From: a virus | Virus record (IMG/VR): IMGVR_UViG_3300027746_000075 | Coordinates: 1-29,369 of that record | Reading direction: 5' to 3' (one strand) | DNA: 29,369 nt | Shown: positions 1,999-25,571 of the stretch, one piece after another | How the letters are laid out: every line of letters starts with the position of its first letter | Position numbering within the stretch: the stretch's first letter is position 1 | Position numbers and translations under genes: made by a program | The notes under the pieces: generated by a model | What the model saw: the letters and a program-made list of their open reading frames with translations, nothing else | Told to the model about the DNA's origin: nothing | Databases searched by the model: none

Positions 1999-1999
1999 A

Positions 2000-2092
2000 T
2001 TAGATGGAGAGTAAGAAGCCGATGAGGCCGATTGAAACGGCGATGAGAGTGAAGAGGGCGAAGCCCAGCAAGTCGAGGATTTGTTCTTTCAT
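2000..2092 (-). CDS. 30-aa single transmembrane micro-protein
   Basis: The 30-residue peptide begins MKEQILDLLG and then has an almost unbroken hydrophobic helix (FALFTLIAVS followed by IGLIGFLLSI) running to its last residue. It starts 11 nt after the stop of the 57-aa gene, and its stop is 1 nt before the next ATG, so it lies inside a real operon. Such peptides in phages can be holins, antiholins or small membrane effectors, but nothing in the sequence selects one role. Confidence 0.5.
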   Translation of the reverse strand: MKEQILDLLGFALFTLIAVSIGLIGFLLSI

Positions 2093-2103
2093 GAGATTAT
2101 TTT

Positions 2104-2277
2104 TTATTCTTCAACTCCGCAGGCTTTGAGGAAAGCTTCTTTCTTGAAGAGGGAATTTTCACGCTTCAACATTCCGCAAAGGCTTTTTGCGATAGAGTCA
2201 ACAGTTTGCTGATGTTCTCCGAACGTGCGTTCGTGTTTGAGGATTTGAGCGATTTCGATGTAGTGCTTTTTTGTCAT
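2104..2277 (-). CDS. 57-aa phage protein with C-terminal FLKACG motif
   Basis: The protein begins MTKKHYIEIAQILKHE and ends KKEAFLKACGVEE. This pattern (a KKHY.EIA.IL start and an F..ACG end) is one I know from short uncharacterised proteins of phages and mobile islands; their function is unknown. It is the first gene of an operon that continues with a 30-aa membrane peptide, a 60-aa helical protein and an 82-aa membrane protein. A possible promoter just upstream (TTGACC at 2307-2312, weak -10 at 2285-2290) would again leave only 7 nt before the ATG. Confidence 0.65.
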   Translation of the reverse strand: MTKKHYIEIAQILKHERTFGEHQQTVDSIAKSLCGMLKRENSLFKKEAFLKACGVEE

Positions 2278-2284
2278 GGTGTTA

Positions 2285-2312
2285 TTTTGATTTATTTTGT
2301 GGTTAGGGTCAA
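2285..2312 (-). promoter_or_regulatory. Possible leaderless promoter for the gene starting at 2277
   Basis: The minus strand shows a good -35 (TTGACC) preceded by an A/T-rich run. The element at the expected -10 position (TCAAAA) is poor. The spacing to the ATG (7 nt) fits the regional pattern. Confidence 0.35.
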
Positions 2313-2321
2313 GGGATTATT

Positions 2322-2552
2322 TTAGAAGTCGCGGAATCTTTCGATGCGCTCAACTTCGGAATCTCTCCAAGCGTTTTCCGATTCTTCCGTGCTATCGCCT
2401 AGGCTGTCCTCGTTGGCGGGTTCCGCCGCGAACGTGCGTAGCGCGTTGCGCTCGTCATGCTCGGTAGCGTAGTCGCTAGGCGTGTTGATGCCAACCCAGT
2501 CGTATGGCATTTCGGAGGGTTGCGGGATGTTGATGTTGTTGGTGTTGTTCAT
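2322..2552 (-). CDS. Hypothetical acidic 76-aa protein
   Basis: The protein starts MNNTNNINIPQPSEMPYDWVG and becomes strongly acidic in its second half (EPANEDSLGDSTEESENAWRDSEVERIERF). Low complexity and few hydrophobic residues suggest it is largely disordered. The ATG is 6 nt after a TATTCT -10. It appears monocistronic, since the next gene leftward has its own possible promoter. An acidic, disordered phage protein could be a DNA mimic or inhibitor, but this is speculation. Family unknown. Confidence 0.55.
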   Translation of the reverse strand: MNNTNNINIPQPSEMPYDWVGINTPSDYATEHDERNALRTFAAEPANEDSLGDSTEESENAWRDSEVERIERFRDF

Positions 2553-2558
2553 AGTTAA

Positions 2559-2587
2559 AGAATAGATGAGGTTGAGAAAAAACGCAA
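2559..2587 (-). promoter_or_regulatory. Leaderless promoter for the gene starting at 2552
   Basis: The minus strand shows a TTGCGT -35, a 17-nt spacer, a TATTCT -10 and 6 nt to the ATG. An A-rich run ending in CCC precedes the -35, as at the 3489, 3775 and 4033 promoters. Confidence 0.6.
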
Positions 2588-2683
2588 GGGATTTTTTGCG
2601 ATTGTGTGAATTATTTTTGTTGATGATTTTTCAAACGAACGTTTTATTTCATGAGTTGGCACGCCGCTTGCGTAGCATGTTGC

Positions 2684-2930
2684 GTAAAGCGTTGATATTC
2701 AACGACTTACGCCAAACGGCGGGGCGCGGCCGCGTAAGTGCTTGATGTTCAACAGCTTAACCTATGATCGTGAAATTCGTTTCGTGATGATCAGTAAGCG
2801 CCTCATACTCAACGGCTTAACCTATGATCGTGAAATCTATTTCATGATGATCAGTAAGCGCTTGATACTCAACGACTTACGCGCGCGCGCCCCACGCGTA
2901 TGCGTAAGTGCTTGATACTAAACACCTTAC
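2684..2930. repeat. Array of five 27-bp palindromes at 50/60-bp spacing
   Basis: Elements start at 2684, 2734, 2794, 2854 and 2904, giving intervals of 50, 60, 60 and 50 bp. The two 60-bp intervals hold nearly identical 33-bp spacers (2761-2793 and 2821-2853), each with two GATC sites and a partial inverted repeat. The 50-bp intervals hold 23-bp GC-rich spacers. No gene lies in 2553-3218. The cluster is the best candidate in the window for an origin of replication or a partition site. Confidence 0.85.
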
Positions 2931-2941
2931 GACATTAACGC

Positions 2942-3014
2942 TAAATTCCGCCGAGCGACGAACGTGGTTTTATTGAATTCCTTAAATTCCGCCGAGCGAC
3001 GAACGTGGTTTTAT
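2942..3014. repeat. Perfect 32-bp direct repeat, two copies
   Basis: A 32-bp sequence beginning TAAATTCCGCCGAGCGACG is present at 2942-2973 and again, identical, at 2983-3014 (start-to-start 41 bp). It sits between two members of the palindrome array, in a non-coding region. Confidence 0.9.
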
Positions 3015-3023
3015 CTATACTAC

Positions 3024-3100
3024 GTAAAGCGTTGATATTCAACGACTTACGCCAAACGGCGGGGCGCGCCGCCGTAAGTGCTTGATACTCAAGGGGTTAC
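3024..3100. repeat. Pair of 27-bp imperfect palindromes, last copy
   Basis: Elements start at 3024 and 3074, 50 bp apart. The 23-bp spacer is nearly identical to those at 188-210 and 2711-2733. The right arm of the last element is degenerate (AAGGGGTTAC). Confidence 0.8.
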
Positions 3101-3172
3101 AAGGCATCGTTCGTGGTGCTTAAGGCGTTGGCTTAGCCCGAAGGTGAGAATCATCTATCACACTAGGCAAGC

Positions 3173-3200
3173 AAAAAGCGCATAGTGATACACTATACGC
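3173..3200 (-). terminator. Intrinsic terminator after the gene ending at 3219
   Basis: On the minus strand a 10-bp stem with one G-U pair (arms 3191-3200 and 3178-3187) encloses a 3-nt loop and is followed by five T residues (A run at 3173-3177). It lies 18 nt past the stop of the 87-aa gene. Confidence 0.8.
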
Positions 3201-3218
3201 AGTTGTGTGTTATTTACC

Positions 3219-3482
3219 TTACCAACCTGCCATCCCAGGATCAATTTCGTTTAGGATGACGCTATCAATTTTCTTTTGCAGATCCTCGTCACTGATTATC
3301 GAGTCCAGAGACACAGGATGCAGTATCGAGGACGCTTTGAAGTCTACGACCTCAGTATCAGTATCGTCGTTAAACAGATTGAGCGTTACCATTTCGAAGT
3401 TCATGTCGCTGTCAACATAAAACTCCGCGTCGATGCTGTAATTGGTTTCGTTGAAGGTGAATGAGGTGTTTATATCTTTCAT
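3219..3482 (-). CDS. Hypothetical acidic 87-aa protein, paralogue of the next gene
   Basis: The protein (MKDINTSFTFNETNYSIDAE...) shares its N-terminal half with the 77-aa protein at 3535-3768: both have an FTFN.TNY.ID.EF core, then a conserved NDDTDTEV motif at about residues 38-45, before the C-termini diverge. They are tandem duplicates. Acidic composition and predicted beta strands suggest a small soluble domain. The ATG is set by a strong promoter 6 nt upstream, and a hairpin terminator follows, so it is probably transcribed alone. No family recognised. Confidence 0.65.
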   Translation of the reverse strand: MKDINTSFTFNETNYSIDAEFYVDSDMNFEMVTLNLFNDDTDTEVVDFKASSILHPVSLDSIISDEDLQKKIDSVILNEIDPGMAGW

Positions 3483-3488
3483 GCTTTT

Positions 3489-3516
3489 AATTTATCAGAG
3501 ATTGATGGATTGTCAA
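3489..3516 (-). promoter_or_regulatory. Leaderless promoter for the gene starting at 3482
   Basis: The minus strand shows a perfect TTGACA -35, a 16-nt spacer ending CTCTGA (extended -10) and a TAAATT -10. The ATG starts after 6 nt. It is almost identical to the promoter at 3775-3802. Confidence 0.75.
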
Positions 3517-3534
3517 GGGATTTTTTTATTTATT

Positions 3535-3768
3535 TTAGACCTCTGCGCCTCCGTAACAAGGCGCATTATCGTTGGCAACGTCCATCATCATTTGGTTAAT
3601 GTGCTGATGCAGTTCGATGCTGATGCTTTCAACTTCCGTATCGGTGTCATCGTTCCAGAGTGAGTGCGTAACGACTTCGATGCTGTTCTCTTCGCTATCG
3701 AAGAGAAACTCCGTGTCGATGTTGTAGTTGGTTCCGTTGAAGGTGAATTCTTTTCTTAGGTAGTTCAT
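3535..3768 (-). CDS. Hypothetical acidic 77-aa protein, paralogue of the previous gene
   Basis: The protein begins MNYLRKEFTFNGTNYNIDTE and contains the NDDTDTEV motif (about residues 39-46) shared with the 87-aa neighbour. The C-terminal part (ELHQHINQMMMDVANDNAPC) differs and looks helical. The gene has its own leaderless promoter, almost identical to that of its neighbour, so duplication included the control region. Function unknown. Confidence 0.65.
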   Translation of the reverse strand: MNYLRKEFTFNGTNYNIDTEFLFDSEENSIEVVTHSLWNDDTDTEVESISIELHQHINQMMMDVANDNAPCYGGAEV

Positions 3769-3774
3769 ATTTTT

Positions 3775-3802
3775 AATTTATCAGAGATTGGTTAATTGTC
3801 AA
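3775..3802 (-). promoter_or_regulatory. Leaderless promoter for the gene starting at 3768
   Basis: The minus strand shows a TTGACA -35, a 16-nt spacer ending CTCTGA, a TAAATT -10 and the ATG after 6 nt. Confidence 0.75.
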
Positions 3803-3821
3803 GGGATTTTTTTCGATTATT

Positions 3822-4025
3822 TTAGACCTTTGCGCCCTCGTAGTAGGCATCAAGGTCGCGCAGATGGCGAGTGGTGAAGCCAGCCTTATCGGTGCGCTTG
3901 ATGATGCGCTCAAGCTCACGCGCCGCTTGACGCGAGGCGACTAGGAAGCTGGACGCGCTGACAGTTATGTCGAGAACGCGCGCTTTGGTTGTTTTGTTGG
4001 TTAGGATGAACGTGTATGTTTTCAT
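3822..4025 (-). CDS. Hypothetical 67-aa protein
   Basis: The protein begins with a strand-like segment (MKTYTFILTNKTTKARVLDI). A helix rich in Ala and Arg follows (VASRQAARELERIIKRTDKA), then TTRHLRDLDAYYEG. The beta-beta-alpha order and the basic helix are reminiscent of small phage proteins of unknown role. The ATG follows a TAAATT -10 after 7 nt. It is monocistronic, because each neighbouring gene has its own promoter. Confidence 0.6.
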   Translation of the reverse strand: MKTYTFILTNKTTKARVLDITVSASSFLVASRQAARELERIIKRTDKAGFTTRHLRDLDAYYEGAKV

Positions 4026-4032
4026 TTGATTA

Positions 4033-4060
4033 AATTTATCAGAGTTGGGAAAAAATGCAA
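4033..4060 (-). promoter_or_regulatory. Leaderless promoter for the gene starting at 4025
   Basis: The minus strand shows a TTGCAT -35, a 16-nt spacer ending CTCTGA and a TAAATT -10, with 7 nt to the ATG. The A-rich run before the -35 is conserved with the sister promoters. Confidence 0.7.
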
Positions 4061-4073
4061 GGATTTTTTTCGA

Positions 4074-4247
4074 TTAGCGTAACTTTTTTTTGTTGACGTT
4101 CCACAGGTCGCTCATCGGGATTCGATGGCATTTGAACTCGAGCGTTCCCTTGCTGGAGGTGACGCGGTAGATTCGCACGTTCACGCCTGCAAACACGGGT
4201 GCGCCCAACTGACCGATTTCTTTCGAGGTGTATCTGTTCTTAATCAT
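4074..4247 (-). CDS. Hypothetical 57-aa protein, related to the gene at 1110
   Basis: The chosen start (MIKNRYTSKEIGQL) lies 6 nt after a TATCCT -10, matching the regional pattern. A longer frame up to 4304 would read through the promoter and is rejected. The N-terminal K..YTS.EI pattern and basic C-terminus (NVNKKKLR) resemble the 60-aa protein at 1110-1292. The middle (VFAGVNVRIYRVTSSKGTLEFKC) looks like beta strands. Family unknown. Confidence 0.55.
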   Translation of the reverse strand: MIKNRYTSKEIGQLGAPVFAGVNVRIYRVTSSKGTLEFKCHRIPMSDLWNVNKKKLR

Positions 4248-4253
4248 GTAGAC

Positions 4254-4281
4254 AGGATACCACAGCCTACGGAAAACACCA
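4254..4281 (-). promoter_or_regulatory. Candidate leaderless promoter for the gene starting at 4247
   Basis: The minus strand shows a weak -35 (TGGTGT), a 16-nt spacer ending TGG, a TATCCT -10 and 6 nt to the ATG. The discriminator and spacer edge match those of the promoter at 1299-1326. Confidence 0.5.
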
Positions 4282-4361
4282 GAAAAATCTTTGCGGTTTT
4301 GCAAAGTATTTTTGTTGATGATACCCCCCCACTTTTTGAAAAAAAGCGAACGCTCGTTTGA

Positions 4362-4632
4362 ATTTTAGGGGGCGGGGGGGACCGTTTTCAATCTCCTGAA
4401 TTTTTCTATTAATTCATTTAATTTAACCCATACGTATAAGTCTTATATCAAATATATAGATATATAAAATATAAATTTATATCAAATATACATATTACTA
4501 TTCATATGTATAAAGATATCCCTATTCTTATATATCCCCCCTACCCTTTTATAAAACCGTATAGAGAAAACACCCTAATAATAAAATAACAAATCTAAAA
4601 AATCCGCGGGGTATTTTTTTACGGATATTTTT
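4362..4632. other. AT-rich intergenic stretch at a composition boundary
   Basis: No gene is supported here. The stretch begins just after a poly-C/poly-G block (about 4323-4381) and then becomes very AT-rich. It holds a 14-bp direct repeat (TTATATCAAATATA at 4443-4456 and 4477-4490). At its right end, on the minus strand, a weak 5-bp stem (ATCCG/CGGAT) with a T run could terminate the gene at 4636. It separates the G+C-richer small-gene region from the AT-rich remainder. Confidence 0.5.
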
Positions 4633-11454: not shown

Positions 11455-12162
11455 ATGCCTAAAAAGATAAAAGTTATTAGGCCTACATTCGAAGACTCTA
11501 TTGATATTATAGACTCAGAAATTAAAAAAAGAAAACATCGTTGGCATTTAACTGCGATTGCATGGATGGATTTTGAAGATGTTTCTCAACGATTACGTTT
11601 ACATATATATAAAAAATGGGAGAAATGGGACGAAGATCGTCCATTACGACCATGGTTAAATCAGGTTATTAATCACCAAATGACTAATATGCTGAGGAAT
11701 CACTATTCTAATTTCTCAAGGCCATGTTTAAAATGTCCGTTTAATACTGGTGATTACGGTTGCTCTATACATGGAACTCAAAATAATAGTTGTAAAGATT
11801 ATAAAAAATGGGAAAAAAGTAAAAAGTCTGCTTACGATGTGAAATTCCCGTTAAGTATTCATAGCCCAAATCATGAAAATCCCGAGACAACATTGGAGAG
11901 CATTTTACATGATACTGAAAATTATCTTAATATAGAAACTGTATTACCAGCATTTCATGAAATAATGAAAAAAAATTTAACTAATATTGAATGGAAAGTT
12001 TATGATTGTATGTTTTTACAAAATTTAGAAGAGTCAGACGTAGCTAAAAAAATGGGTTACAAATTGAGTTTGAAAGAGGGGCGACCAGCTTATCGTCAAA
12101 TCAGTAAAATCAAATCTAGAATTTTACAAAAAGCACGCGAATTAGTAAAGGAGGTAATATGA
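11455..12162 (+). CDS. Phage-encoded sigma70-family (ECF-like) factor
   Basis: In this 235-aa protein, residues 30-84 look like sigma region 2 (WMDFEDVSQRLRLHIYKKWE, then DRPLRPWLNQVINHQMTNML). Residues 176-231 look like region 4, with a helix-turn-helix (NIEWKVYDCMFLQNLEESDV, then AYRQISKIKSRILQKA). Between them is an unusual Cys/His cluster (Cys91, Cys94, Cys103, His106, Cys113) that could hold zinc. The middle linker replaces region 3, as in ECF factors. In large phages such proteins direct late transcription. The gene sits at the head of the packaging genes, and its stop overlaps the next start. Confidence 0.75.
   Translation: MPKKIKVIRPTFEDSIDIIDSEIKKRKHRWHLTAIAWMDFEDVSQRLRLHIYKKWEKWDEDRPLRPWLNQVINHQMTNMLRNHYSNFSRPCLKCPFNTGDYGCSIHGTQNNSCKDYKKWEKSKKSAYDVKFPLSIHSPNHENPETTLESILHDTENYLNIETVLPAFHEIMKKNLTNIEWKVYDCMFLQNLEESDVAKKMGYKLSLKEGRPAYRQISKIKSRILQKARELVKEVI
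12148..12154 (+). promoter_or_regulatory. Strong Shine-Dalgarno site for the gene at 12159
   Basis: AAGGAGG lies 4 nt before the ATG, inside the end of the sigma gene. It is the only near-perfect ribosome binding site I saw in the window. It supports a start that overlaps the sigma stop (ATATGA), and the host therefore probably retains anti-Shine-Dalgarno recognition. Confidence 0.75.
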
Positions 12163-13267: not shown

Positions 13268-14194
13268 ATGGATAAGAACACAATGTATTTAAAATGTAAG
13301 GTTTGCGGAAACGAGTTTATTTCCTTTGTAGATATAAAAGATCATTTAAAAAATTTTCATAAAGTATCTGCCAAAACTTATTTTGAATCTAATTGGAGGC
13401 GTATTGATCGTTTCAATGGTGAAAAATTAGAATACAAAACCTTTGATCAGTATATAACTTGCGATTTTAAAGATAAGAAGAATTATAAAAGCTGGTTAAA
13501 AACTTTATCTAAAGAGGAATGTGGGGATTATTTTAAACATAAATTATCGCAGTATTGTGATTTTAAATATTTAGAATATGTTCCCTCCCAAGTAGAATGT
13601 CAAACAATTAATTGTTTAATTCCAGCTAGTAGTATGGAGGGATTCTCTGGACTCACTTATAATCAAATTTGTGAATCAATAAAATTGAAAACAAGATTCG
13701 ATTATATTAAAAAAGATATCGCTTTAACTCCCATCGATCAAATTATCATAGATACACGCGAGCAAAAGCCTTTTAAATTTAAGGACAAAATTGTAATTGA
13801 TTCTAAATTAGAATACGGGGATTATTCTGTACATCCTAATAATAAATTAGCTGTAGAACGCAAAAGTCTTGTTGATTTGTTCGGTACTTTGAGCGGCGGG
13901 AGGGAGAGGTTTGAAAAAGAAATTCAACGCGCTAAAAAAATGAATGGTTATATTGTTGTCGTAGTCGAGTCTACTTTAAATAATATGATGTATCAGAAAC
14001 AAAAGTTCTCGAAGGCTTCTGGAGATTTTATTGCCCATAATATGCGCCAAATTTTAAGAAGTTATGATAATATACAATTTGTATTTTGTGACGGACGTGA
14101 AGACGCACGTAATAAAACCGTTCATATATTAGAAATGGATGAAATGGCTTTTAATATAGATTTACAATATTATTTTGACACAACATGGCACTAA
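13268..14194 (+). CDS. C2H2 zinc finger plus ERCC4-type nuclease
   Basis: The 308-aa protein has a C2H2-like finger at residues 10-31 (CKVCGNEF...HLKNFH), then a linker of about 120 residues. From about 158 it has an ERCC4 (XPF/Mus81-type) nuclease domain: IIIDTREQKPF (159-169), LEYGDYSV (181-188), AVERKSLVDLFGTL (195-208) and GRERFEKEI (211-219). The conserved D162, D185 and ERK at 197-199 are intact. ERCC4 nucleases cut branched or junction DNA. Immediately before TerL (10-nt overlap), it may resolve replication intermediates before packaging; this is inference. Confidence 0.85.
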   Translation: MDKNTMYLKCKVCGNEFISFVDIKDHLKNFHKVSAKTYFESNWRRIDRFNGEKLEYKTFDQYITCDFKDKKNYKSWLKTLSKEECGDYFKHKLSQYCDFKYLEYVPSQVECQTINCLIPASSMEGFSGLTYNQICESIKLKTRFDYIKKDIALTPIDQIIIDTREQKPFKFKDKIVIDSKLEYGDYSVHPNNKLAVERKSLVDLFGTLSGGRERFEKEIQRAKKMNGYIVVVVESTLNNMMYQKQKFSKASGDFIAHNMRQILRSYDNIQFVFCDGREDARNKTVHILEMDEMAFNIDLQYYFDTTWH

Positions 14195-16200
14195 TTGTAG
14201 GAAATCAAAAAAAATCTAAGCCATTAGCTAACGTTAATCAAGAGTTACTCGATTTAAAAGGAGACTTGACCGATGAAGAAGCGCGGATTAGCCTTGCCAA
14301 ATTTCTAAGATATAATCTTGGTTTTACTACAGAACTATCTTTAGGTTTAACATTAGAAGCTTATCAAGAATTAACACTCAATTCTTTTTTCAATAGAAAT
14401 TATTGCATGTTAATATGGGGTCGTGGTGGCGCAAAAAGTTTTTGCGCCGCTATTTATTGTATTCTTAAATGCATGCTAGAGCCTGGGACTAAAATACTTA
14501 TTGCGTCTATTAATTTTCGTACGAGTCGCCGCGTTTTCAATGAAATCGAAAAATTTCTAATGTCTCCAGAGGCAGCTCTCGCGCGACAGTGTTTTGGTTT
14601 GAAAAGCAAGCGTAATGACCAGTACGAATGGCAAATTAATGGCGGTAGTATTACAGCTATCCCGTTAACTGGGGAAAAAATCCGTGGTATTCGTGCTAAC
14701 GTGTTGATTCTAGACGAGTTTTTACTATTACCTCCAGATATTATTGATAATGTTCTTATACCCTTCCTAAGTTCCCCAAGAGATGTAGGTGAACGTATTC
14801 GTATTAGAAAATTAGAAGATGAGTTGCTTAAAAAAGGATTATTACATCCTGATAATAGGCACATATTTGAAAATACATCTCAAATGTTATGTTTGAGTTC
14901 GGCCAGTTATACTTTTGAGCATTTATTTCGCGTGCATCAACAGTGGTCTAGTTTAATAGAGACTCCAGATGAACAGGGATCAAAAGAAGGCGAACTTCCA
15001 GGAACATATTTTATTTCCCAATTAAGTTATGAAGCGCTACCGCCACATATGGTAGATCAAGGAGCAATTCAGGTAGCCCAAAGTGGGGGGAGTTCTCACC
15101 ACTCATTTCTTCGTGAATATTGCGCACGTTTTATTGACGGCGGAGATAGTTATTTCTCCCCCAAAAAGATGCATGTATGTACTATCCCAGACGGCGAATA
15201 TCCCACTACAAAAGTAGTCGGAGATAGTGACAAAAAATATATATTATCAATCGATCCGAACTTTAGCTCCTCTAAAAAGATGCATGTATGTACTATCCCA
15301 GACGGCGAATATCCCACTACAAAAGTAGTCGGAGATAGTGACAAAAAATATATATTATCAATCGATCCGAACTTTAGCTCCTCTAAAACTGCTGACTATT
15401 TTGCAATGAGTGTTATAGAGCTAGATGAAGAAAAAAAACAAGGTGTTCTTGTTCATGGCTATCAGGCAGCTGGATCTTCGCTACAAGACCATATTAAGTA
15501 TTTTTATTATTTATATAAAAACTTTAATATTAATTTAATTGTAATTGACCATGCTGGTGCAGATACTTTTATAGACGCAGTTAATAATTCTGAATACATG
15601 AAAGGTCTTAATCGTAAAATTGGTTTCATAGACTTTGATTCTGATAAAGAGAATGAGGATTATACTGCGATGGTAAAAGATTGCGCGCGTCAATATAATA
15701 AAGATTTTGGAACGATTTGTGTGAAACAATTTTTTACCTCGGCATTTTTGGGTAGAGCTAACTCCTATCTTCAAACTTGTATTGATCATAAAAAGATTTG
15801 GTTTTCCTCTCGTGCAAGCAATCATCCAGATATTGTTGAGAATATATTCTCAATGAATCTTCCGATGGAATATATTTACCCTAGAGGTATCGGTGAAAAA
15901 GCCGATAATGAATATGAAACAAAAAAATTAACAGTAAGAGAGTTTATAGAACAGCAGGATTTTATTATACAAGATACTAAAGATCAATGCGCAAACGTAG
16001 AGGTGAGTACTACTTCCAGAGGAACCCAAAGCTTTGATTTACCGTCACATTTAAGAAAATCAACTAGCATTAATAGGGCTAGAAAAGATAATTATACCAC
16101 TCTTATGTTGGGGAACTGGGGGGTTAAAATTTATTTTGATTTAATGGCTCCAGAGAATTTTATTAAAAAAAATGTACAATTCGTTGCTGAACTTATCTAA
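14185..16200 (+). CDS. terL: Terminase large subunit with internal tandem duplication
   Basis: The 671-aa protein is the packaging motor. Its ATPase domain has Walker A GRGGAKS (79-85) and Walker B VLILDE (173-178). The nuclease domain starts at KKYILSIDPNFSSSKTADYF, where Asp394 is the likely first metal ligand. A 37-aa block (327-363) is repeated exactly as residues 364-400, so a second copy of the SIDPNF strand occurs at Asp357. Removing one copy gives 634 aa, closer to the usual size. The start overlaps the ERCC4 gene by 10 nt. The identity is secure; whether the duplicated form is active is not. Confidence 0.9.
   Translation: MALIVGNQKKSKPLANVNQELLDLKGDLTDEEARISLAKFLRYNLGFTTELSLGLTLEAYQELTLNSFFNRNYCMLIWGRGGAKSFCAAIYCILKCMLEPGTKILIASINFRTSRRVFNEIEKFLMSPEAALARQCFGLKSKRNDQYEWQINGGSITAIPLTGEKIRGIRANVLILDEFLLLPPDIIDNVLIPFLSSPRDVGERIRIRKLEDELLKKGLLHPDNRHIFENTSQMLCLSSASYTFEHLFRVHQQWSSLIETPDEQGSKEGELPGTYFISQLSYEALPPHMVDQGAIQVAQSGGSSHHSFLREYCARFIDGGDSYFSPKKMHVCTIPDGEYPTTKVVGDSDKKYILSIDPNFSSSKKMHVCTIPDGEYPTTKVVGDSDKKYILSIDPNFSSSKTADYFAMSVIELDEEKKQGVLVHGYQAAGSSLQDHIKYFYYLYKNFNINLIVIDHAGADTFIDAVNNSEYMKGLNRKIGFIDFDSDKENEDYTAMVKDCARQYNKDFGTICVKQFFTSAFLGRANSYLQTCIDHKKIWFSSRASNHPDIVENIFSMNLPMEYIYPRGIGEKADNEYETKKLTVREFIEQQDFIIQDTKDQCANVEVSTTSRGTQSFDLPSHLRKSTSINRARKDNYTTLMLGNWGVKIYFDLMAPENFIKKNVQFVAELI
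15163..15388. repeat. Perfect 111-bp in-frame tandem duplication within terL
   Basis: Bases 15163-15277 are identical to 15274-15388 (offset 111). The copies share a 4-base AAAA at the junction, a microhomology typical of slippage or template switching. The unit encodes 37 residues starting KKMHVCTIPDGEYPTTKVVG. No substitutions separate the copies. Confidence 0.95.
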
Positions 16201-16214
16201 TAAATAAGATTTTG

Positions 16215-16222
16215 GTGTAATA
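16215..16222 (+). promoter_or_regulatory. GTGTAAW motif before the portal gene
   Basis: The sequence is GTGTAATA, 17 nt before the ATG at 16240, with ACTATTATAAT between. It lies in the only gap (39 nt) of the packaging block. Confidence 0.5.
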
Positions 16223-16239
16223 AACTATTATAATAAATT

Positions 16240-18198
16240 ATGGCGAGCACTAAAAATGTAAAATTCCCAGAGCCAGAGATGATTGAAGGTTCGGTAAAAT
16301 ATAATGATTCTATTGAAGTAAAGGCTAGCCGTGGAGACTCCACTTCTTCTGTTCGTAGGAATCGTTCTACAACTATTTCTAGAACTGATAAGTATTCTAA
16401 TATCGAAGGTGGCGTAATACCGTTCACTTATGGTGGTGGGCATGGTAGGTATAATTCTAATATTAGTATTCGTGACACTATTATTCTCTGTCAAAAGGCG
16501 TATTATAATTTTTCAATTTTTAGAAATACAATTGATTTAATGACAGAGTTTAGCTGTTCACCGATTTATTTTACTGGTGGAAACGAGCAATCTCGTAAGT
16601 TTTTCCAAGCATGGGGCGATAGAGTTAACCTGTGGAAATTACAGGATATGTTCTTTCGTGAATTTTATAGAAGTGGTAATGTATTTTTATATAAATTAAA
16701 TGCTGCTTTTACAAAGCAAGACATGCGCGTTATTTCGGATCTAATTACTACAGAGGCGCGCACGGGCGAAGTTCCTATTCGCTATATAGTTTTAAACCCC
16801 GCTGATATTCAAGCTATTGGATCGGCATCTTTTATTAGTCCAAAATATATTAAAATATTAAATGATTTTGAAATGCAAGTTTTAACTAACCCTACTTCTG
16901 AAGAAGATAAGGCATTATCAATGCGGGTTAAAAATATTAAGGACTTACAGGATAAAACTAATCTTAGTATGACTAATCAATATATGGTTTTTGAATTAGA
17001 GCCAGAAAGGTTTATTCCAGTATTTTATAAAAAGCAGGATTACGAACCATTTGCTATTCCGATGGGTTTCCCAGTTTTAGAGGACATTAACTGGAAGCAA
17101 GAGTTAAAGAACATGGATATGGCTATTAGTCGTACAATCCAGCAAACCGTACTGCTTGTCACGATGGGTAATGACGAAATCGGTATGCCGACAAAAGAAC
17201 AGATCGGAACACTCAGAAAAATATTTGAAAATGAGAGTGTTGGCCGTATTCTTGTTACAGATTATACTACTAATATTAAATTTATTATTCCAGAAATCGG
17301 ACAGATTCTTGATCCTAGAAAATATGAAGTTGTAGATCGTGATATTCGTTATGGTCTTAATAATGTACTTTTTGGTGAGGAAAAATACGCTAATACTAGT
17401 ACTAAAATAGAAGTATTTCTTTCGCGTTTAAAGCACGCGCGCGAGACTTTTATGAATGAGTTTTTAATTCCAGAAATGAAGAAAATCAGCAAGGATTTGG
17501 GTTTTAAAAATATTCCGACCCCAAGATTTAAAGATGCTGATTTTAAGAGCGATGCAACTTTAACTCGTACTTACTCTAGACTCATTGAACTTGGGGTATT
17601 AACTCCAGAAGAAGGTCTTACGGCAATTGATACTGGACGTTTACCACTTCCAGACGAAAGTATTAAATCTCAAAAAGAATTTATTAAATTACAGGACGAG
17701 GATGGGTTATATCGACCATTATTGAATAAACCCGCTGGAACTCCTGGAGGTCCACCTATGCCACCCAAACCTATCTCAGCACCAAACCCTGGAATTTCTG
17801 GACCCACGGGTCGGCCAGCGGGAACTGGCACTCCGCAAACAACTAAAACTCCTGGAAAAATCGGTATAAAAGCTAGTGAGAGTAAACCCCAAGTAAATGC
17901 CGACCTTGTTTCTAAAAATTTAATGAAATTTGATCAACTTGTAGAATCAGTCGGGACTTATTTAAAAGAAAAATATAGCAAAAAAAATCTTTCGAAAGAA
18001 CAGAAGGAAATTATTAAGACTGTAGCTGAAACTATAGCTACTAATGAAAACCCAAAAGATTGGTCGAATAAAATTGAAAATTATATTAACAAACCAGTAG
18101 AAATAACTGTAAATATGAATGAGATTCAAGGCATTGCTGAAGAATATGGTATAGATTATAAAACGGCAATTCTTCTTTACCACAGTAGAATTGAATAA
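16240..18198 (+). CDS. Portal protein
   Basis: The 652-aa protein directly follows TerL and has the character of a phage portal (connector) protein. It has a long alpha/beta core with FFREFYRSGNVFLYKLNAAF at about 133-155, RYIVLNPADIQAIG near 185, and a stem/wing part (LKHARETFMNEFLIPEMKKI near 405-425). A Pro/Gly-rich linker (GTPGGPPMPPKPISAPNPG and following, about 500-545) precedes a C-terminal helical domain (about 560-652) that many portals lack. Portals form the 12-mer ring through which DNA enters. Assignment rests on position, size and the core pattern; confidence is high but not absolute. Confidence 0.8.
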   Translation: MASTKNVKFPEPEMIEGSVKYNDSIEVKASRGDSTSSVRRNRSTTISRTDKYSNIEGGVIPFTYGGGHGRYNSNISIRDTIILCQKAYYNFSIFRNTIDLMTEFSCSPIYFTGGNEQSRKFFQAWGDRVNLWKLQDMFFREFYRSGNVFLYKLNAAFTKQDMRVISDLITTEARTGEVPIRYIVLNPADIQAIGSASFISPKYIKILNDFEMQVLTNPTSEEDKALSMRVKNIKDLQDKTNLSMTNQYMVFELEPERFIPVFYKKQDYEPFAIPMGFPVLEDINWKQELKNMDMAISRTIQQTVLLVTMGNDEIGMPTKEQIGTLRKIFENESVGRILVTDYTTNIKFIIPEIGQILDPRKYEVVDRDIRYGLNNVLFGEEKYANTSTKIEVFLSRLKHARETFMNEFLIPEMKKISKDLGFKNIPTPRFKDADFKSDATLTRTYSRLIELGVLTPEEGLTAIDTGRLPLPDESIKSQKEFIKLQDEDGLYRPLLNKPAGTPGGPPMPPKPISAPNPGISGPTGRPAGTGTPQTTKTPGKIGIKASESKPQVNADLVSKNLMKFDQLVESVGTYLKEKYSKKNLSKEQKEIIKTVAETIATNENPKDWSNKIENYINKPVEITVNMNEIQGIAEEYGIDYKTAILLYHSRIE

Positions 18199-18201
18199 AT
18201 T

Positions 18202-19110
18202 ATGAGTAAGAGTTTAATACGAAAAAATCAATTGCATCCAGATATCTCTGATTTAATCGGTGATTATGGTAGTAATTTTTTCGTAACTCCTAGTCAACTA
18301 AATTCTGGAGTTAATAGTATACAAAGTGTTTATATTACTGGATTTCAGAATGTATCTGGTGTTAAAAATTTTAATAATAGACCTACTTTTAGTGGTATAG
18401 GATTAGCTACTACAGGTGATATTATTTCGTCCTCAATTCAACCATTAAAAAATGGACAAGACGTCGTAACTTTCTTAAATGCTACCTATTTTCCATCTCA
18501 ATATGCTACTATAGGTTTAAGTATCCCGTCCACTCTATTAGAATTAGGTACAAGTTATTCAAATGTTCCATATGTAGTTACAGTGCAGCAAAATGAATCA
18601 ACTTCTATATCTAATTTATTATTAAAAAGTGGAAATAACACTGTAAGAACTATTACTACACCAATCGTCGGAACTACCACGTATACTATAACCCCAGAGT
18701 TATTATTAAAAAATACTTCCACTTTAACAGCATCATTAACAGTAAATAATAATGGATCTATTTCTAACCCTAGTAGTTCAGTAGAAGTTATTTTTGTAGC
18801 CCCCAGCTGGAAAGGGCAGGGAGCTAACGGACTTACTAATGGCGTACAAACAATGACAAAATATTTAAATACAAAAGCAAATAGAACATTTCGTTTTGAT
18901 ACCACAAATAATCATTTTTATTATGCATATCCAAGCGGATGGGGTCCATTATCTTCTATTATAGATCCAAACAATTTTCCTATTACCACTTCATTTTCAA
19001 GTACAACGGTTAATTTAATTTTAGCTGATAGCACGCCATATCCATATAGAATCTATCAATCAATTATTGCTTCTACAAATCCAAACTTTAATATAACGTT
19101 TAACTTTTAA
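18202..19110 (+). CDS. Virion fibre/baseplate protein, 302 aa
   Basis: Near residues 42-72 the protein has one diverged copy of the fibre module (VYITGFQNVSGVKNFNNRPT). Two Ig-like beta segments follow (VTVQQNESTSISNLLLKSGN). The C-terminal domain (about 205-302) contains WKGQGANGLT, RTFRFDTTNNHFYYAYPSGW and ends PYRIYQSIIAS...FNF; the same domain closes the 1003-aa neighbour. It follows the portal gene by 3 nt with no Shine-Dalgarno sequence. It is probably a structural component of the tail tip or neck; the precise place is unknown. Confidence 0.65.
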   Translation: MSKSLIRKNQLHPDISDLIGDYGSNFFVTPSQLNSGVNSIQSVYITGFQNVSGVKNFNNRPTFSGIGLATTGDIISSSIQPLKNGQDVVTFLNATYFPSQYATIGLSIPSTLLELGTSYSNVPYVVTVQQNESTSISNLLLKSGNNTVRTITTPIVGTTTYTITPELLLKNTSTLTASLTVNNNGSISNPSSSVEVIFVAPSWKGQGANGLTNGVQTMTKYLNTKANRTFRFDTTNNHFYYAYPSGWGPLSSIIDPNNFPITTSFSSTTVNLILADSTPYPYRIYQSIIASTNPNFNITFNF

Positions 19111-19112
19111 TT

Positions 19113-22100
19113 ATGGGAATACCACTTTCAACAAATTTTAATCTTACAGCTGGTATACCTCTAGATTCTAGAGTGGTCGTATCAGATATAACCCAAAGAG
19201 ATAATTTAGTTACGAATTCAATATCATATGTAGGAATGATTGTTTTTGTTACTAGTACTAATCGACATTACTATCTTAATACAAATAATATATGGGATGA
19301 TATCGGTGGCGGTGATTTTGTTTATACAACTGGTAATCAAAAAATAAGTGGCAGCAAATCTTTTCAAAAAAATTTGTATTTTACTGGTGGTAGTCAATTT
19401 TTATATTTTGGAGAGTCTAGTGGAACTGCTGATTATGGTACAATAATGTATGTTAGGAGTGGAAGTGATCCATTTTCAACTTTTACAATAATGAGAGGTG
19501 GTACGAGTCCAGCTCATAGTTATGGTATAGTATTTGAAGGAGGGGACAAGAATACAAAAAAGGGGTATCTAACGTCTGGCACGAGTACATTATCTACTGG
19601 ATATCAGTATGCAACTTTAGACTGGGTTAATAGACAATTGTTTAAAAATTGGAATTTTGATGATCGCCCCACCGTTAATGGAATTGGGGTACTTTTACAG
19701 GGCGAGGCTACTGCCGGAGGCTCAATAGCTAATATTGTTTATACGACTGGTAATCAGAATATTAATGGTGAAAAAACTTTTAATTATATAAACACTATTA
19801 TTACAGGAATAGATTTTAATGGTGAAGTATTTGCAAGGGAAAATATAGAAGCTCTACGTTTCGTATCCGTGCAAAATCCTAATAGTTATATTTATTGGAA
19901 TGGATTGCGTTGGGATTTATATTCTGATACTGAATATTATGTAGTATATTACAATAATAATTTTAGTTTACAAGGCCCATGGATTTCTGTAGATGATCCT
20001 GCTATTCAAGAAGAATACGTTTATCCAATTTTGACGTCAACTAATTCGTACTTTAAGACTAAAGATTTTAATATTGAGTTAAAAAATAAAAATCTTATTT
20101 TTAAGGATAGTTTTATATCTGGTGCTAAATTTTTATCAAGACCTACTTTTAATCAAATACCCGTTGCTTTAAGCGGAGAAGGTTTATCGATTAGAAGTTC
20201 CAAAATTAATGAGACGCTCTGGGCTTTAAATACCTTTGACACATCAAAATTAGGAAGTTGGGACGGCAATGAGCCCAATACTTGGCAATTTTATGATTTG
20301 AGTTATAGTGGAAATAATTCTTTATTTCCATTCTTCCCTTATACATATTTCGGTGGTATACAAGAGTATCGTGGATATACTTGTCAACAATTACCTCAAT
20401 ACCCATTCCTCTCAAACGGTTGTACTAATAATATATATTACAGTATTGGTAAATATCATAATATTACTATTAAAACAGGACTTACTTTTGCAGTTGATGG
20501 TTTTGTATTCCATGATAACAAAGTAACTGGGGTCACCTTACCAACTAATCAAGTTTTATATTCAGATCAATCAAGTGGTTATAGAAAATACAAAGCAGAT
20601 CAACCAGGTGCTACTAGAGCTAGTGGTGGAGATCAACTCGAGGGTTTATCTATAAATTTTAATATATTGAAATTAAATAATACTATTGGTTTATCTAAAT
20701 GGGTAGTTTCTGGACAGGGTTCTTATTGGAATACTATTGGCGTTACCTCTTTAACATCTGGATTAAATCCTTGGGACGTTTCTTGGCCGAGTGGACTATC
20801 TATTGGCGTTACCTCCATCACTGGTTCAAAGACTTGGAGTTTAAGACTTACAAATGATAATTTATGGGATGGCGGAGATTTTAGTAGTGATTCTATTGTT
20901 ACTGATACAGCAAATACTGGTAATAATCCAATTTTAGCTTTTGCCAATTATTTTACTTTATCGTCTGGTCAATTTGATGGTCGCTCAGCAACACTTTTGG
21001 GTTCTGAAGGGGTTTCTCCGAATCCTTCTAGATCTGATCATACGCATCCAATAACATTAAGTTTTCCATCACGCCCGACTGTAAATGGAACTGGGGTTCT
21101 TTTAAGTGGTGAGGCCGCACAAGTTGATCTCTCTTCGACTGTTCGTACAACTGGTAATCAAACAATTAGTGGGATTAAAAAATTTACTCAATTAAATTTT
21201 CAGCCAGTAGATCCATCGTATTCAAGTGCCCATATTAAATCTACAATGTGGGATGGAATGACAGAGGGTATAGGATTATTTAGTCTTAATGACCAAATTG
21301 TTAATTTTAATGACGGTGAAATTGAGTTATATAAAACAACTCGTTTTTCTCAACGCCCCACGTTAAATGGAACAGGCTTTCTTTTAATTGGCGAAGCGAC
21401 TGCTGGAGGTGATCTACTTTTTAATGGTAATAGACAAATTAAACGTGATGGACAATTCAAAGGAATTAATCCTGGTGGCACGACAATATCAGGATTTTTA
21501 AATAATTTATTTTATCCATTCGTACAGGGCTCAATTTCTTTAAATTCGATAGCATTACAAGAAAAAGGTAAGCCCTTGGCAAGCGTTCCATTTATCGGAA
21601 CAATAACATCAAATGATGATACTATAACAAATTTAAAATATAAAATCGGAGGATCTCAAGTCGGTAGTACGGTAACTAACCCAGTATCGAATTTTTCCTA
21701 TTCTCATAGCCAACCTATTACGGCAACTACTACAATATCTATAGACGTTACATCAGCCAATAATGGGAATTCTAATACACTTTCAGCTTCACAAACTATT
21801 GATTTTGAAGCACCATATTATTGGGGAGTGGGAATAGCTGGATTTACTGAGGCTGACATAAAAGCCAATCTCACGAAAGTATTACAATCTAAATCTAATA
21901 AATCACATTCTTTTACGACTAGTAATGAAAAAAAATATATAGTTATTTCAAGTTCATGGGGGGCTATTATAAGTATTCTAGATCCAGCCTTATTTGAAAA
22001 TATTGGTGGATGGACTTCTAGATCAGCTACTTTTACATTATTTGATAGTACACCACATAGTTATACAATATGGGAAGCAAATAATTTAACCACTAACACA

Positions 22101-22124
22101 TTAACTTACACATTTAAATTTTAA
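19113..22124 (+). CDS. Large modular tail-fibre protein, 1003 aa
   Basis: The N-terminal module (about 1-68; GIPL..NF.L..GIPLDSRVVV to YYLNTNNIWDDIG) is one I know from phage tail proteins and recurs at the start of the 216-aa gene downstream. Several copies of the TTGNQ..SG.K.F and RPTVNGTGVLLSGE modules follow. Between them is a unique region (about 370-640; rich in Trp, Tyr and Gly) that could bind a receptor. An Ig-like segment and a C-terminal domain (about 900-1003) match the end of the 302-aa protein. It is probably a trimeric fibre; host-recognition role inferred. Confidence 0.75.
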   Translation: MGIPLSTNFNLTAGIPLDSRVVVSDITQRDNLVTNSISYVGMIVFVTSTNRHYYLNTNNIWDDIGGGDFVYTTGNQKISGSKSFQKNLYFTGGSQFLYFGESSGTADYGTIMYVRSGSDPFSTFTIMRGGTSPAHSYGIVFEGGDKNTKKGYLTSGTSTLSTGYQYATLDWVNRQLFKNWNFDDRPTVNGIGVLLQGEATAGGSIANIVYTTGNQNINGEKTFNYINTIITGIDFNGEVFARENIEALRFVSVQNPNSYIYWNGLRWDLYSDTEYYVVYYNNNFSLQGPWISVDDPAIQEEYVYPILTSTNSYFKTKDFNIELKNKNLIFKDSFISGAKFLSRPTFNQIPVALSGEGLSIRSSKINETLWALNTFDTSKLGSWDGNEPNTWQFYDLSYSGNNSLFPFFPYTYFGGIQEYRGYTCQQLPQYPFLSNGCTNNIYYSIGKYHNITIKTGLTFAVDGFVFHDNKVTGVTLPTNQVLYSDQSSGYRKYKADQPGATRASGGDQLEGLSINFNILKLNNTIGLSKWVVSGQGSYWNTIGVTSLTSGLNPWDVSWPSGLSIGVTSITGSKTWSLRLTNDNLWDGGDFSSDSIVTDTANTGNNPILAFANYFTLSSGQFDGRSATLLGSEGVSPNPSRSDHTHPITLSFPSRPTVNGTGVLLSGEAAQVDLSSTVRTTGNQTISGIKKFTQLNFQPVDPSYSSAHIKSTMWDGMTEGIGLFSLNDQIVNFNDGEIELYKTTRFSQRPTLNGTGFLLIGEATAGGDLLFNGNRQIKRDGQFKGINPGGTTISGFLNNLFYPFVQGSISLNSIALQEKGKPLASVPFIGTITSNDDTITNLKYKIGGSQVGSTVTNPVSNFSYSHSQPITATTTISIDVTSANNGNSNTLSASQTIDFEAPYYWGVGIAGFTEADIKANLTKVLQSKSNKSHSFTTSNEKKYIVISSSWGAIISILDPALFENIGGWTSRSATFTLFDSTPHSYTIWEANNLTTNTLTYTFKF

Positions 22125-22130
22125 AAAATT

Positions 22131-22781
22131 ATGGCAGGAATACCTTTAGGATTAAACTTTGACCTCGGCTCAGCTTTACCTCTTGACAGTCGTTTAGTTG
22201 TAAATACTTTTGCAAATCTTACTAGTATTCCAAATCAATATTCGGGAATGCAAGTATATGCTGCAGATACTAAAAAATTATATTATTTAGAAAGTACTAA
22301 TAGCTGGTTAGAAGTAAGCTTGTTGAATGCGTCGGTACAAACAACTGGAGCGCAAAATATTAGCGGAACAAAAACTTTTATTTCTAATATAGTTCTTTAT
22401 TCTGGCGTTAACGTCACATTTAACGAAGCTACAAATGTAGTATTTTCTGGGACTCCAGTTTTTAATTCTGGAATTAATTCTAATGTTTTATTGAATACTA
22501 AAAATAGTCATTTTGATATAACTAGCGATATGAATGGTAAGATGATCCTAGTATCTGGGGCGGCTAATACTATTATTACTGGAACCATACAATTAAATTT
22601 AAATAATGGTTATAATGTTAGTATAACACAAATGGGTAGTGGTCAAGTATTTATTACTGGAGTAAATTTAATAGATATAAAACAAAAATTTAATTTATAT
22701 TCTACTGCTGGTCAATATTCTGTAGTATCTTTATTACATTATGGATCTAATAAATATTTATTATATGGGGATCTTGCTTAA
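22131..22781 (+). CDS. Tail fibre or collar protein, 216 aa
   Basis: The protein opens with MAGIPLGLNFDLGSALPLDS, followed by a YSGMQVYAADTKKLYYLEST segment; this module is shared with the 1003-aa fibre. One TTGAQNISGTKTF module lies near residues 74-86. The C-terminal half (about 125-216; DMNGKMILVSGAANTIITGT and a final YLLYGDLA) is a small beta knob of the type found at the ends of phage fibres. It lies 6 nt after the preceding gene. Virion structural role is likely. Confidence 0.65.
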   Translation: MAGIPLGLNFDLGSALPLDSRLVVNTFANLTSIPNQYSGMQVYAADTKKLYYLESTNSWLEVSLLNASVQTTGAQNISGTKTFISNIVLYSGVNVTFNEATNVVFSGTPVFNSGINSNVLLNTKNSHFDITSDMNGKMILVSGAANTIITGTIQLNLNNGYNVSITQMGSGQVFITGVNLIDIKQKFNLYSTAGQYSVVSLLHYGSNKYLLYGDLA

Positions 22782-22786
22782 TATGT

Positions 22787-23506
22787 ATGTTCAATAATTA
22801 TGCTGCACATATTGGAATTTTAACTAACGCTGGTCAACGAATTATTACAGCAACGGTTAAATGGAATTTTAATAATTTAACAGTATTAGGATTCGGTAAT
22901 GATACCAGTAATAAAGAAGATAGGCCAAGAATTAATTTTTGGAGAAATGACGGTGACGCTCGATATGCTCAATACGTATCTGGCGGAAAGAATGTTTTAT
23001 ATCCTATGTCTACTGGAGATATTATTGAACCATGGGGAAATAGAAATACTGGGGAATATACTTTCCAAATACCTCTTAGTGGTACTTTATATGCTGGAAT
23101 AGATTTGTTTACACATTCTTATATGTTACCAACGGGATTAAACCCACCGTTAAGTGAATGGACGACTAGAAATACTAATAATCCTAATGAAATACAGTAT
23201 CAATATAGATTTAAAAATAGTGAAACTTCGAAGAATATTACTATTGAATTAGGTACTGGAGTATGTGGACAGCCAAGTATTCCAACTAGATCTCCAGGTC
23301 AAAAAATTATATATTCGGTAGATGTCAATAATTGTCCAAAATTTACTCTATTATCTGGTTTCTGGTCATTTAATACAGCTACGAATAAAGCAATAAGTAA
23401 TTTTAAAATTACTTCTAATGGCACTGTTAATATTAATTGGGGCGACGATACAACACAAACAGCGGCAAGTTCTAATATTACATATAATCATAAATTTGAA
23501 AAATAA
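22787..23506 (+). CDS. Virion protein ending in a cut-short PKD-like domain, 239 aa
   Basis: The 239-aa protein has a beta-rich N-terminal part (residues 1-130, e.g. YTFQIPLSGTLYAGIDLFTH). A second domain starts near residue 185 (CPKFTLLSGFWSFNT). It ends with ITSNGTVNINWGDDTTQTAA and NHKFEK. The NWGD..T motif followed by NH.F is the beginning of a PKD/BspA-like fold, which normally continues for further strands; here two TAA codons follow at once. The start at 22787 is preferred because an ATG 4 nt earlier meets a stop after four codons. The specific role is unknown. Confidence 0.55.
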   Translation: MFNNYAAHIGILTNAGQRIITATVKWNFNNLTVLGFGNDTSNKEDRPRINFWRNDGDARYAQYVSGGKNVLYPMSTGDIIEPWGNRNTGEYTFQIPLSGTLYAGIDLFTHSYMLPTGLNPPLSEWTTRNTNNPNEIQYQYRFKNSETSKNITIELGTGVCGQPSIPTRSPGQKIIYSVDVNNCPKFTLLSGFWSFNTATNKAISNFKITSNGTVNINWGDDTTQTAASSNITYNHKFEK

Positions 23507-23533
23507 TAATTTGAATACTATACTATGATTAAT

Positions 23534-23541
23534 GTGTAATT
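23534..23541 (+). promoter_or_regulatory. GTGTAAW motif before the baseplate-like gene
   Basis: The sequence is GTGTAATT, 13 nt before the ATG at 23555, followed by TAGTATAATTG. A TATACTAT/ATAGTATA inverted repeat (about 23518-23551) surrounds it. Confidence 0.5.
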
Positions 23542-23554
23542 ATAGTATAATTGT

Positions 23555-23902
23555 ATGAATCCTGCCGTTTATAATTTACCAACTGGATACCGTGGTGACA
23601 CTTACGGGCCTATTACTTTTCGTTTTTACAATAGTTCGGGAAGTGGTATTAATTTGAGTGGTGTTTCTGGCGCACTGCAAGTCAGACAGGCGCAAGATTT
23701 ACCAGTTGTGGCACAATGGATAACCGCTGATAGTTCAATGAGAATTAGTGGAAATACTGTAACACTTTCGCCACGTTCTGGTAATTGTATGCGCATGATG
23801 CCAGGAGTTTATTCTTATGATTTACAATTAATTTCTGGAACTTCAACTCGAACATATTTAAAAGGAACTCTTCCAATTGATGGAGATATAACTAGCCTAT
23901 AG
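23555..23902 (+). CDS. Baseplate-type (BppU N-terminal-like) protein, 115 aa
   Basis: The 115-aa beta protein has the sequence rhythm of small phage baseplate or head-fibre adaptors. It begins with YRGDTYGPITFRF, then INLSGVSGALQVRQ, and has a turn NTVTLSP near residue 70. It ends with PGVYSYDLQLISGTSTRTYL, then KGTLPIDGDITSL. The lPPG.Y.YDLQ...G...T...G.....DIT layout is familiar from phage proteins that attach fibres to baseplates. It ends 1 nt before the solenoid protein gene, suggesting joint expression and assembly. I hold the family assignment moderately. Confidence 0.6.
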   Translation: MNPAVYNLPTGYRGDTYGPITFRFYNSSGSGINLSGVSGALQVRQAQDLPVVAQWITADSSMRISGNTVTLSPRSGNCMRMMPGVYSYDLQLISGTSTRTYLKGTLPIDGDITSL

Positions 23903-23903
23903 T

Positions 23904-25571
23904 ATGTCTGATGATATTTATATTAATATAGATGATGAGCAGCCCAAACCAGTTGATGTAGTTCAAGTAGAGTTTGATAAGCAGGATGTTTATATAGACG
24001 TTCAGCAGGATTACGCGCCAGTTTTATCAGTTAATGGTCAAGTTGGATATGTAAATCTTACGCCAGAAAATTTGGGATTAAATAATATTGTTTATACCAC
24101 TGGTAATCAAAATATTGGGGGCGTAAAAACTTTCGCATCGCGCCCAACAGTTAATGGAACTGGGGTTCTTTTGAGTGGAGAATCGTTGACCACAGTTCAA
24201 ATTTTAAATACAACATACTCCACATTAACAGGTTTAAAAGCTACAAACAGTTTACTCAGCGGCCAATTATATAGAATTTCAGATTTTGTTCTCAAATGGA
24301 ATAACCAATCAATCAACGATCAAACAGTAAAAACAGCAGCCTCTGGCGAGCCCTTAATTGTCACTGCTCTTTCTAATAATACAATACATCCCATAGCGCG
24401 ATCAGAAATTTATCCTCAAGACACGGTTTATTATAATATAGATGCTACTAGTTCTTATTCTTGGGGAACTATAAATAATAATTTAGCTATACCAGACTTT
24501 AAGGGCTGGATTTATAGAAGAGTAGATAATTTTCTTAATATTGATATTTCTTATGATTGGAGAAACATAACAGTTAATTGTTGTAAACCGGATGTTAGTT
24601 CTGTGCCTAATTATTCTCCTAATGTTCAATACTCTAGATTAGATTATGTTAAAGAAACTGGCAATAATAGCAATCGCGGCAAGTTATTTTATTCTATTAT
24701 AACAGGCAATTTTGGTAATGTTTTAAGTAATCATAACGCTTGGATTGAAGTATCAGATTTTGTTGAGAGCGGAACTTATTTCGCTACGGATGAAAGTTTT
24801 GGATGGAGTGCTTTGTATGACCTTGCAATATACTTACCATTCATTACTGGTTCAAGAATTCAACAACCAACCTTTGTTTCTACTCTTACTGGATTAGGAG
24901 TTTTTTATATGTATGATGTTCATGATGTAAAAATACAAGGTGGTCATAGTAATGTAATATTTGGAGCTGGTTTCTTCAACAATACAATTGAAAATGATTT
25001 TAACAATAATACAATCGGACCTAATTTTCGTGAGAATAAAATAGGAAACAATTTTGAAAATAACGTAATAGGAATCAATTTCCGAAGTAACACAATAGCA
25101 AACGGTTTCGTGCGTAATGTAATCGGACATTATATGGTAGATAATAGAATCGGAAATACTACACAGTTTAATACAATTGGATCTTTATTCTTTAATAATA
25201 CACTCGGAAGCACTAATATGAGTAATGTAATTGGAAATTACTTCTCTAATAACACAATCGGAAATCAATTTCTAAATAATAGAATTGCAAATAATTTTTA
25301 CGAGAATACAATTGGAGCTACTTTCTATTACAATGCAATCGGAGATTGGTTCATAAATAATACAATTGGCAGCGCTTTTCAGAGTAACACTATTAAAGAT
25401 AATTTTAGATATAACACTGTAGAAGCTTTTTTTGATAATGTTAATTTTTTAAATGCAACCCGTGTGTACGGCACTTATAATACAACATTATTTAAAAACT
25501 CAGCAAACGTCAAGAGACTAAGATATTTTGATGAAAATGACCGAATAACAGTAACTAGCCCAACAGACTAA
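23904..25571 (+). CDS. Fibre protein with nine-residue beta-solenoid repeats, 555 aa
   Basis: The 555-aa protein has an acidic N-terminus (about 1-35; residues resembling a virion-attachment peptide), then VLSVNGQVGYVNLTPENLGL. One TTGNQNIGGVKTFASRPTVN module with GTGVLLSGE follows (about 66-95). A mixed domain spans about 100-350. Residues 353-514 form 18 tandem nine-residue repeats with the consensus IG..F..NT, probably a parallel beta-solenoid. A short C-terminal tail follows. It starts 1 nt after the baseplate-like gene. It is probably a trimeric fibre shaft or tip; attachment role inferred. Confidence 0.75.
   Translation: MSDDIYINIDDEQPKPVDVVQVEFDKQDVYIDVQQDYAPVLSVNGQVGYVNLTPENLGLNNIVYTTGNQNIGGVKTFASRPTVNGTGVLLSGESLTTVQILNTTYSTLTGLKATNSLLSGQLYRISDFVLKWNNQSINDQTVKTAASGEPLIVTALSNNTIHPIARSEIYPQDTVYYNIDATSSYSWGTINNNLAIPDFKGWIYRRVDNFLNIDISYDWRNITVNCCKPDVSSVPNYSPNVQYSRLDYVKETGNNSNRGKLFYSIITGNFGNVLSNHNAWIEVSDFVESGTYFATDESFGWSALYDLAIYLPFITGSRIQQPTFVSTLTGLGVFYMYDVHDVKIQGGHSNVIFGAGFFNNTIENDFNNNTIGPNFRENKIGNNFENNVIGINFRSNTIANGFVRNVIGHYMVDNRIGNTTQFNTIGSLFFNNTLGSTNMSNVIGNYFSNNTIGNQFLNNRIANNFYENTIGATFYYNAIGDWFINNTIGSAFQSNTIKDNFRYNTVEAFFDNVNFLNATRVYGTYNTTLFKNSANVKRLRYFDENDRITVTSPTD
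24960..25445 (+). repeat. Tandem 27-bp coding repeats (18 units)
   Basis: Eighteen consecutive 27-bp units encode nine-residue repeats such as IGNNFENNV, IGINFRSNT, IGNYFSNNT and IGDWFINNT. The DNA is diverged while the Ile, Gly, Phe and Asn positions are kept, so selection on the protein maintains the pattern. Confidence 0.9.

Follow-up and report, generated by a model that had tools for sequence, protein, structure and literature searches.

A 111-bp in-frame tandem duplication across the first nuclease motif of the large terminase gene in one assembled phage record

Does a phage really encode, within its packaging motor, two copies of the strand that carries the first catalytic residue of the terminase nuclease, and if the extra copy is no feature of the virus, how did it enter the sequence? 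The question is raised by the window analysed here, the whole 29,369-nt stretch of IMG/VR virus record IMGVR_UViG_3300027746_000075, in whose terL a 111-bp unit stands twice, head to tail. The features on which the argument turns are as follows:

14185..16200, + strand: terL, large terminase, 671 aa (PHROG_2, PHROG_38, PHROG_9; IMG/VR relatives)
15156..15166, + strand: left breakpoint homology CTCCCCCAAAA (against 15378-15388, 9/11 identical, 4 nt exact)
15163..15273, + strand: copy 1 of the 111-bp unit (exact period-111 run)
15253..15255, + strand: Asp357, nuclease motif I, first copy (translation)
15267..15277, + strand: hybrid junction, CTCCTCTAAAA and then AGATGC (window sequence; not found in IMG/VR)
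15274..15384, + strand: copy 2 of the 111-bp unit (exact period-111 run)
15364..15366, + strand: Asp394, motif I, second copy, normal context (invariant in relatives; RuvC position 7)
15378..15388, + strand: right breakpoint homology CTCCTCTAAAA (sequence comparison)
15547..15549, + strand: Asp455, probable catalytic motif II (VIDHAG; invariant)
16087..16089, + strand: Asp635, probable catalytic motif III (RKDNY; invariant)

A preliminary description of this DNA had named the gene TerL, and this identity is supported by three PHROG families of terminase large subunits: PHROG_2 (E 4.5e-20, residues 54-503), PHROG_38 (E 4.4e-13) and PHROG_9 (E 1e-08). The product had no match in Pfam at 1e-3, nor among PDB chains searched by sequence profile at E up to 1. 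It is a large terminase by its profiles, its Walker motifs and the three acidic residues of a RuvC/RNase H-like nuclease. Walker A (GRGGAKS, residues 79-85) and Walker B (VLILDE, residues 173-178) lie in the N-terminal half, and their residues are invariant in 34 sequences, except G82; D394, D455 and D635 are invariant in the relatives, including a clade at about 50% identity. In the TerL of G20c, cleavage requires D294, D347 and D429, the first of which sits on a core strand (PMC5389553); by analogy with that pattern, Asp455 probably takes the role of D347 and Asp635 probably that of D429. Upstream of terL are genes for a sigma-70 region 2 protein (11455-12162) and, directly adjacent, for an ERCC4-type nuclease (13268-14194).

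The duplication itself is seen directly in the window, which contains no N bases. At period 111 the match is exact over 115 bases (15163-15277 = 15274-15388); copy 2 runs on into the normal downstream sequence, and the match persists for 4 further bases, to 15388. On the left, 7 more bases, from 15156, are imperfectly homologous, with C/T mismatches at 15160/15271 and 15162/15273; a repeat search paired 15156-15266 with 15267-15377 at 98%, and TRF placed the tandem repeat at 15156-15388. In 586 kb, made up of the window and an initial set of relatives, no exact run at periods 24-599 was longer, and a tandem match of 115 exact bases cannot be chance. The unit amounts to 37 codons, so the frame is kept; it contains no stop, terL is otherwise open, and KKMHVCTIPDGEYPTTKVVGDSDKKYILSIDPNFSSS is encoded twice. 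D357 and D394 each lie within KKYILSIDPNFSSSK, the SIDPNF strand, and only the D394 copy is followed by TADYFAMSVIELD. Both the perfect 37-residue duplication and the pair of SIDPNF strands, with a normal context after the second only, had been noticed before; the exact run confirms the one and the translation the other.

Is the second copy shared by related viruses? Relatives of this TerL are encoded on over 300 IMG/VR stretches. The full-length ones are mostly of 633-634 aa, against 671 aa in the window, and nearly all of those among the best 80 fall 111 or 114 bp short of it and have the unit once here. The comparison with relatives that the preliminary description had proposed gave one copy in 199 loci and two in none, for all loci fetched (58 distinct 80-residue neighbourhoods), a count in which some loci overlap or come from one contig twice. 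Duplication aside, 23 TerLs at about 50% identity have gaps of at most one residue over window residues 301-431. Another clade of relatives, about 53% identical, carries no insertion over this stretch and, at its downstream end, at most a one-residue gap. A search of bacterial genomes confirmed no TerL relatives.

One contig is almost a twin of the window. IMG/VR contig IMGVR_UViG_3300010885_040934 (L082; 9335 bp) covers window 14517-23962, beginning within terL, and carries the unit once. Its left flank and unit are 100% identical to the window (761/761 bases, ending with the first copy), and the 8.7 kb beyond have 4 substitutions, two junction bases aside; overall this makes 4 substitutions over about 9.4 kb, or ~0.04% divergence. 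Two are synonymous, and the others are N311D and T438S in ORF 19113-22124. In IMG/VR, L082 alone was found to have the left single-copy boundary or the unit core, and exact and degenerate searches for the two-copy junction found it in no IMG/VR contig, although such a search may omit records that closely resemble that of the window. Judged by the single copy in L082, the 199 single-copy loci and the absence of the junction from IMG/VR, the duplication is derived, very young and peculiar to this record; on the same sequence comparison it is younger than the split that left about 0.04% divergence from L082. The near-identical one-copy contig thus supports the earlier suggestion of a very recent event and narrows the choice between it, a still-variable repeat and an assembly artefact: several copy numbers among close relatives, as in a variable tandem repeat of the contingency type, were not seen, and with a one-copy twin and a universal single copy the lineage has no such repeat in an established or recurrently variable form.

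The breakpoints indicate how the copy may have arisen. They have CTCCyCyAAAA in common, with 9/11 bases identical and AAAA exact; a 9/11 match is reached by 0.04% of random site pairs, and exact homology of at least 4 nt by 2.4% of random junctions. At the middle, the two-copy junction CTCCTCTAAAAAGATG follows the right-hand sequence through AAAA and the left-hand sequence thereafter, and the stretches to set against it when one- and two-copy forms are compared are CTCCTCTAAAACTGCTG and CTCCCCCAAAAAGATG. Such homology fits a single template slip or switch, be its setting the phage, the preparation of the library or the joining of ends in assembly. A DNA hairpin at the unit was considered as the cause of slippage and set aside (z -1.14, not notable). 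We put at a little over one half the probability that, in one phage lineage or one molecule, terL very recently underwent a single in-frame tandem duplication of 111 bp. The most likely course, we infer, is that a growing strand slipped backwards or changed template between the imperfect CTCCyCyAAAA copies 111 bp apart, which would leave the hybrid junction at the common AAAA; the resulting allele would be a neutral-to-harmful, unfixed variant and no adapted feature.

Known duplications offer partial parallels. Those arising spontaneously in Salmonella likewise have their junctions at short homology (PMC3411829); the present one differs in being intragenic, 111 bp long and known from one assembled record, with 4 nt exact within a 9/11 match. 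We found no literature on a duplication inside terL, and nothing specific on false duplication, intragenic duplication or slipped misalignment. Amplification of T4 gene 17, the terL of that phage, around the pac site was reportedly obtained under laboratory selection by Wu, Lin and Black in 1995. Such T4 mutants, which are covered in a review (PMC3012670), resemble our case in that a duplication affects the large terminase gene of a phage, whereas here it is a 37-codon segment within the gene.

What would the protein look like? AlphaFold2 was run on the two-copy and one-copy TerL and gave mean pLDDT values of 42-43, low owing to the shallow alignment, so that any statement on the fold is weak. 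In the two-copy model (mean pLDDT only 42), residues 376-647 superpose on residues 273-441 of the G20c nuclease with Z 8.8, and residue 388 aligns to RuvC residue 1, so that D394 falls at position 7 of RuvC. Copy 2 is modelled as a strand (E388-397), which the one-copy model has at 351-359, and copy 1 as coil whose pLDDT is near 22. Taken with the invariance of D394 and the need of G20c for D294, D347 and D429, the superposition on RuvC and G20c suggests that what was duplicated is very probably strand beta-1 of the nuclease, which bears catalytic Asp I, and the RuvC position and the invariance of D394, D455 and D635 support the earlier proposal that the first catalytic Asp had been duplicated. 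Like the TerLs of G20c and T4/RB49 (PDB 5m1p, 3cpe, 3c6h), this protein joins an ATPase to a RuvC-like nuclease, a likeness to their nucleases drawn through a low-confidence model only; unlike them, it has the strand with the first catalytic Asp twice. If translated, copy 2 (D394) would supply beta-1 where it normally lies, and the first copy would be a 37-residue additional linker between the ATPase and nuclease domains. We favour this extra linker over a loop after beta-1, the models being too weak for more. The loop before the nuclease domain that had been predicted for a real duplication would fit the low-confidence model, with copy 2 in the fold and copy 1 as linker, and there is no sign of a function for it.

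The main competitor to a real duplication, plausible if short of probable, is an artefact: a chimeric molecule from library preparation or amplification, or a faulty joining of overlapping contig ends, the real virus being one-copy. In the latter form, ends with a true overlap of about 122 bp would have been joined through the short, imperfect CTCCyCyAAAA and left unmerged. A k-mer size of 127 is common in short-read assembly, and an overlap of about 122 bp is below it. An artefact would also suit the one-copy twin at about 0.04% divergence, the junction's presence in no other IMG/VR contig, and the universal single copy at a site where the family has no comparable insertions, which makes a viable 37-residue insertion unlikely a priori. 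In read data from Salmonella, moreover, verification failed for candidate junctions whose microhomology was 7 and 9 bp and succeeded for several with more (PMC3411829), and the exact microhomology here is 4 nt. Against this, a k-mer assembler cannot make the junction from one-copy reads with an exact overlap of only 4 nt, so the artefact requires a chimeric read or a faulty end-join, and the unit is in frame, for which an artefact has a probability of 1/3. Across 1.26 Mb of distinct sequence from related contigs of this virus group, the period was divisible by 3 in 12/12 near-complete tandem duplications and in 47/47 exact-repeat entries of 50 nt or more, which are not all independent. Long tandem repeats here thus generally obey coding constraint and no out-of-frame repeat of such kind was seen, which makes frame-blind assembly duplications rare in these contigs, not absent. 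As proof of reality, however, the in-frame bias is weakened, since the other near-perfect duplications sit in tail or fibre-like, collagen-like and LRR proteins, and the coding constraint of repeat-type proteins is no warrant for a duplication in an enzyme. On balance we hold the duplication to be real by a judgement only just on the affirmative side.

Two further explanations accept the second copy as real and ask more of it. That it is a maintained or adaptive insertion, altering the coupling of ATPase and nuclease or acting as a reversible on/off repeat of the motor, is quite improbable: the unit is complete, in frame and free of stops, and one-copy and two-copy sequences both exist as assemblies, but the copies have not diverged, there is no third copy, no second case occurs in about 200 relatives, a doubled core beta strand is structurally awkward, and copy 1 is unstructured in the low-confidence model. 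That two copies are ancestral and were lost in the relatives has next to no probability, for beyond the window itself nothing speaks for it, all relatives have one copy, including those at about 50% identity, and the copies show zero divergence. There is likewise only a slender prospect that a real, translated two-copy allele yields a viable TerL, in which an extra 37-residue segment with a second motif-I strand lies between the ATPase and nuclease domains and the motor tolerates a reversible insertion where all relatives are unaltered; were this so, nature would have tested how much a packaging motor can be lengthened where its ATPase meets its nuclease. The case is an ordinary type of event on one record, with no evidence of a new motor feature, and when a conserved enzyme shows a perfect in-frame duplication that is unique to a single assembled record, reads should confirm it before it is taken for a functional insertion.

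The window holds other repeats. Its left end (1-4380) has a GC content of 45-47%, against 28-37% elsewhere, and no ORF above 103 aa; that this end makes the contig chimeric was considered and rejected, since relatives have 84%-identical sequence there. The region contains an exact 32-nt direct repeat, TAAATTCCGCCGAGCGACGAACGTGGTTTTAT (2942-3014, start-to-start 41 bp), and a palindromic 27-mer that approximates GTAAGTGCTTGATwTTCAACGACTTAC and occurs ten times, often as pairs spaced by 50 bp around a GC-rich hairpin. The 27-mer element lies upstream of terL in six relatives (L084, L086, L089, L093, L109 and L115), in some on both strands; it had no match in the phage and plasmid collections, in Rfam or, as an exact 27-mer, in bacterial genomes, and may represent a family of operators, origins or terminators. 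Imperfect 27-bp tandem repeats occupy 25040-25327, in ORF 23904-25571. Near-perfect in-frame tandem duplications were also found in three relatives (L195 12568-12805, 81 bp; L196 17678-17907, 114 bp; L110 11274-11491, 105 bp), in long repeat-rich proteins, and the extra 105-bp copy of L110 is absent from its close relatives L109 and L111, suggesting that genes of this sort undergo such changes often and have done so recently.
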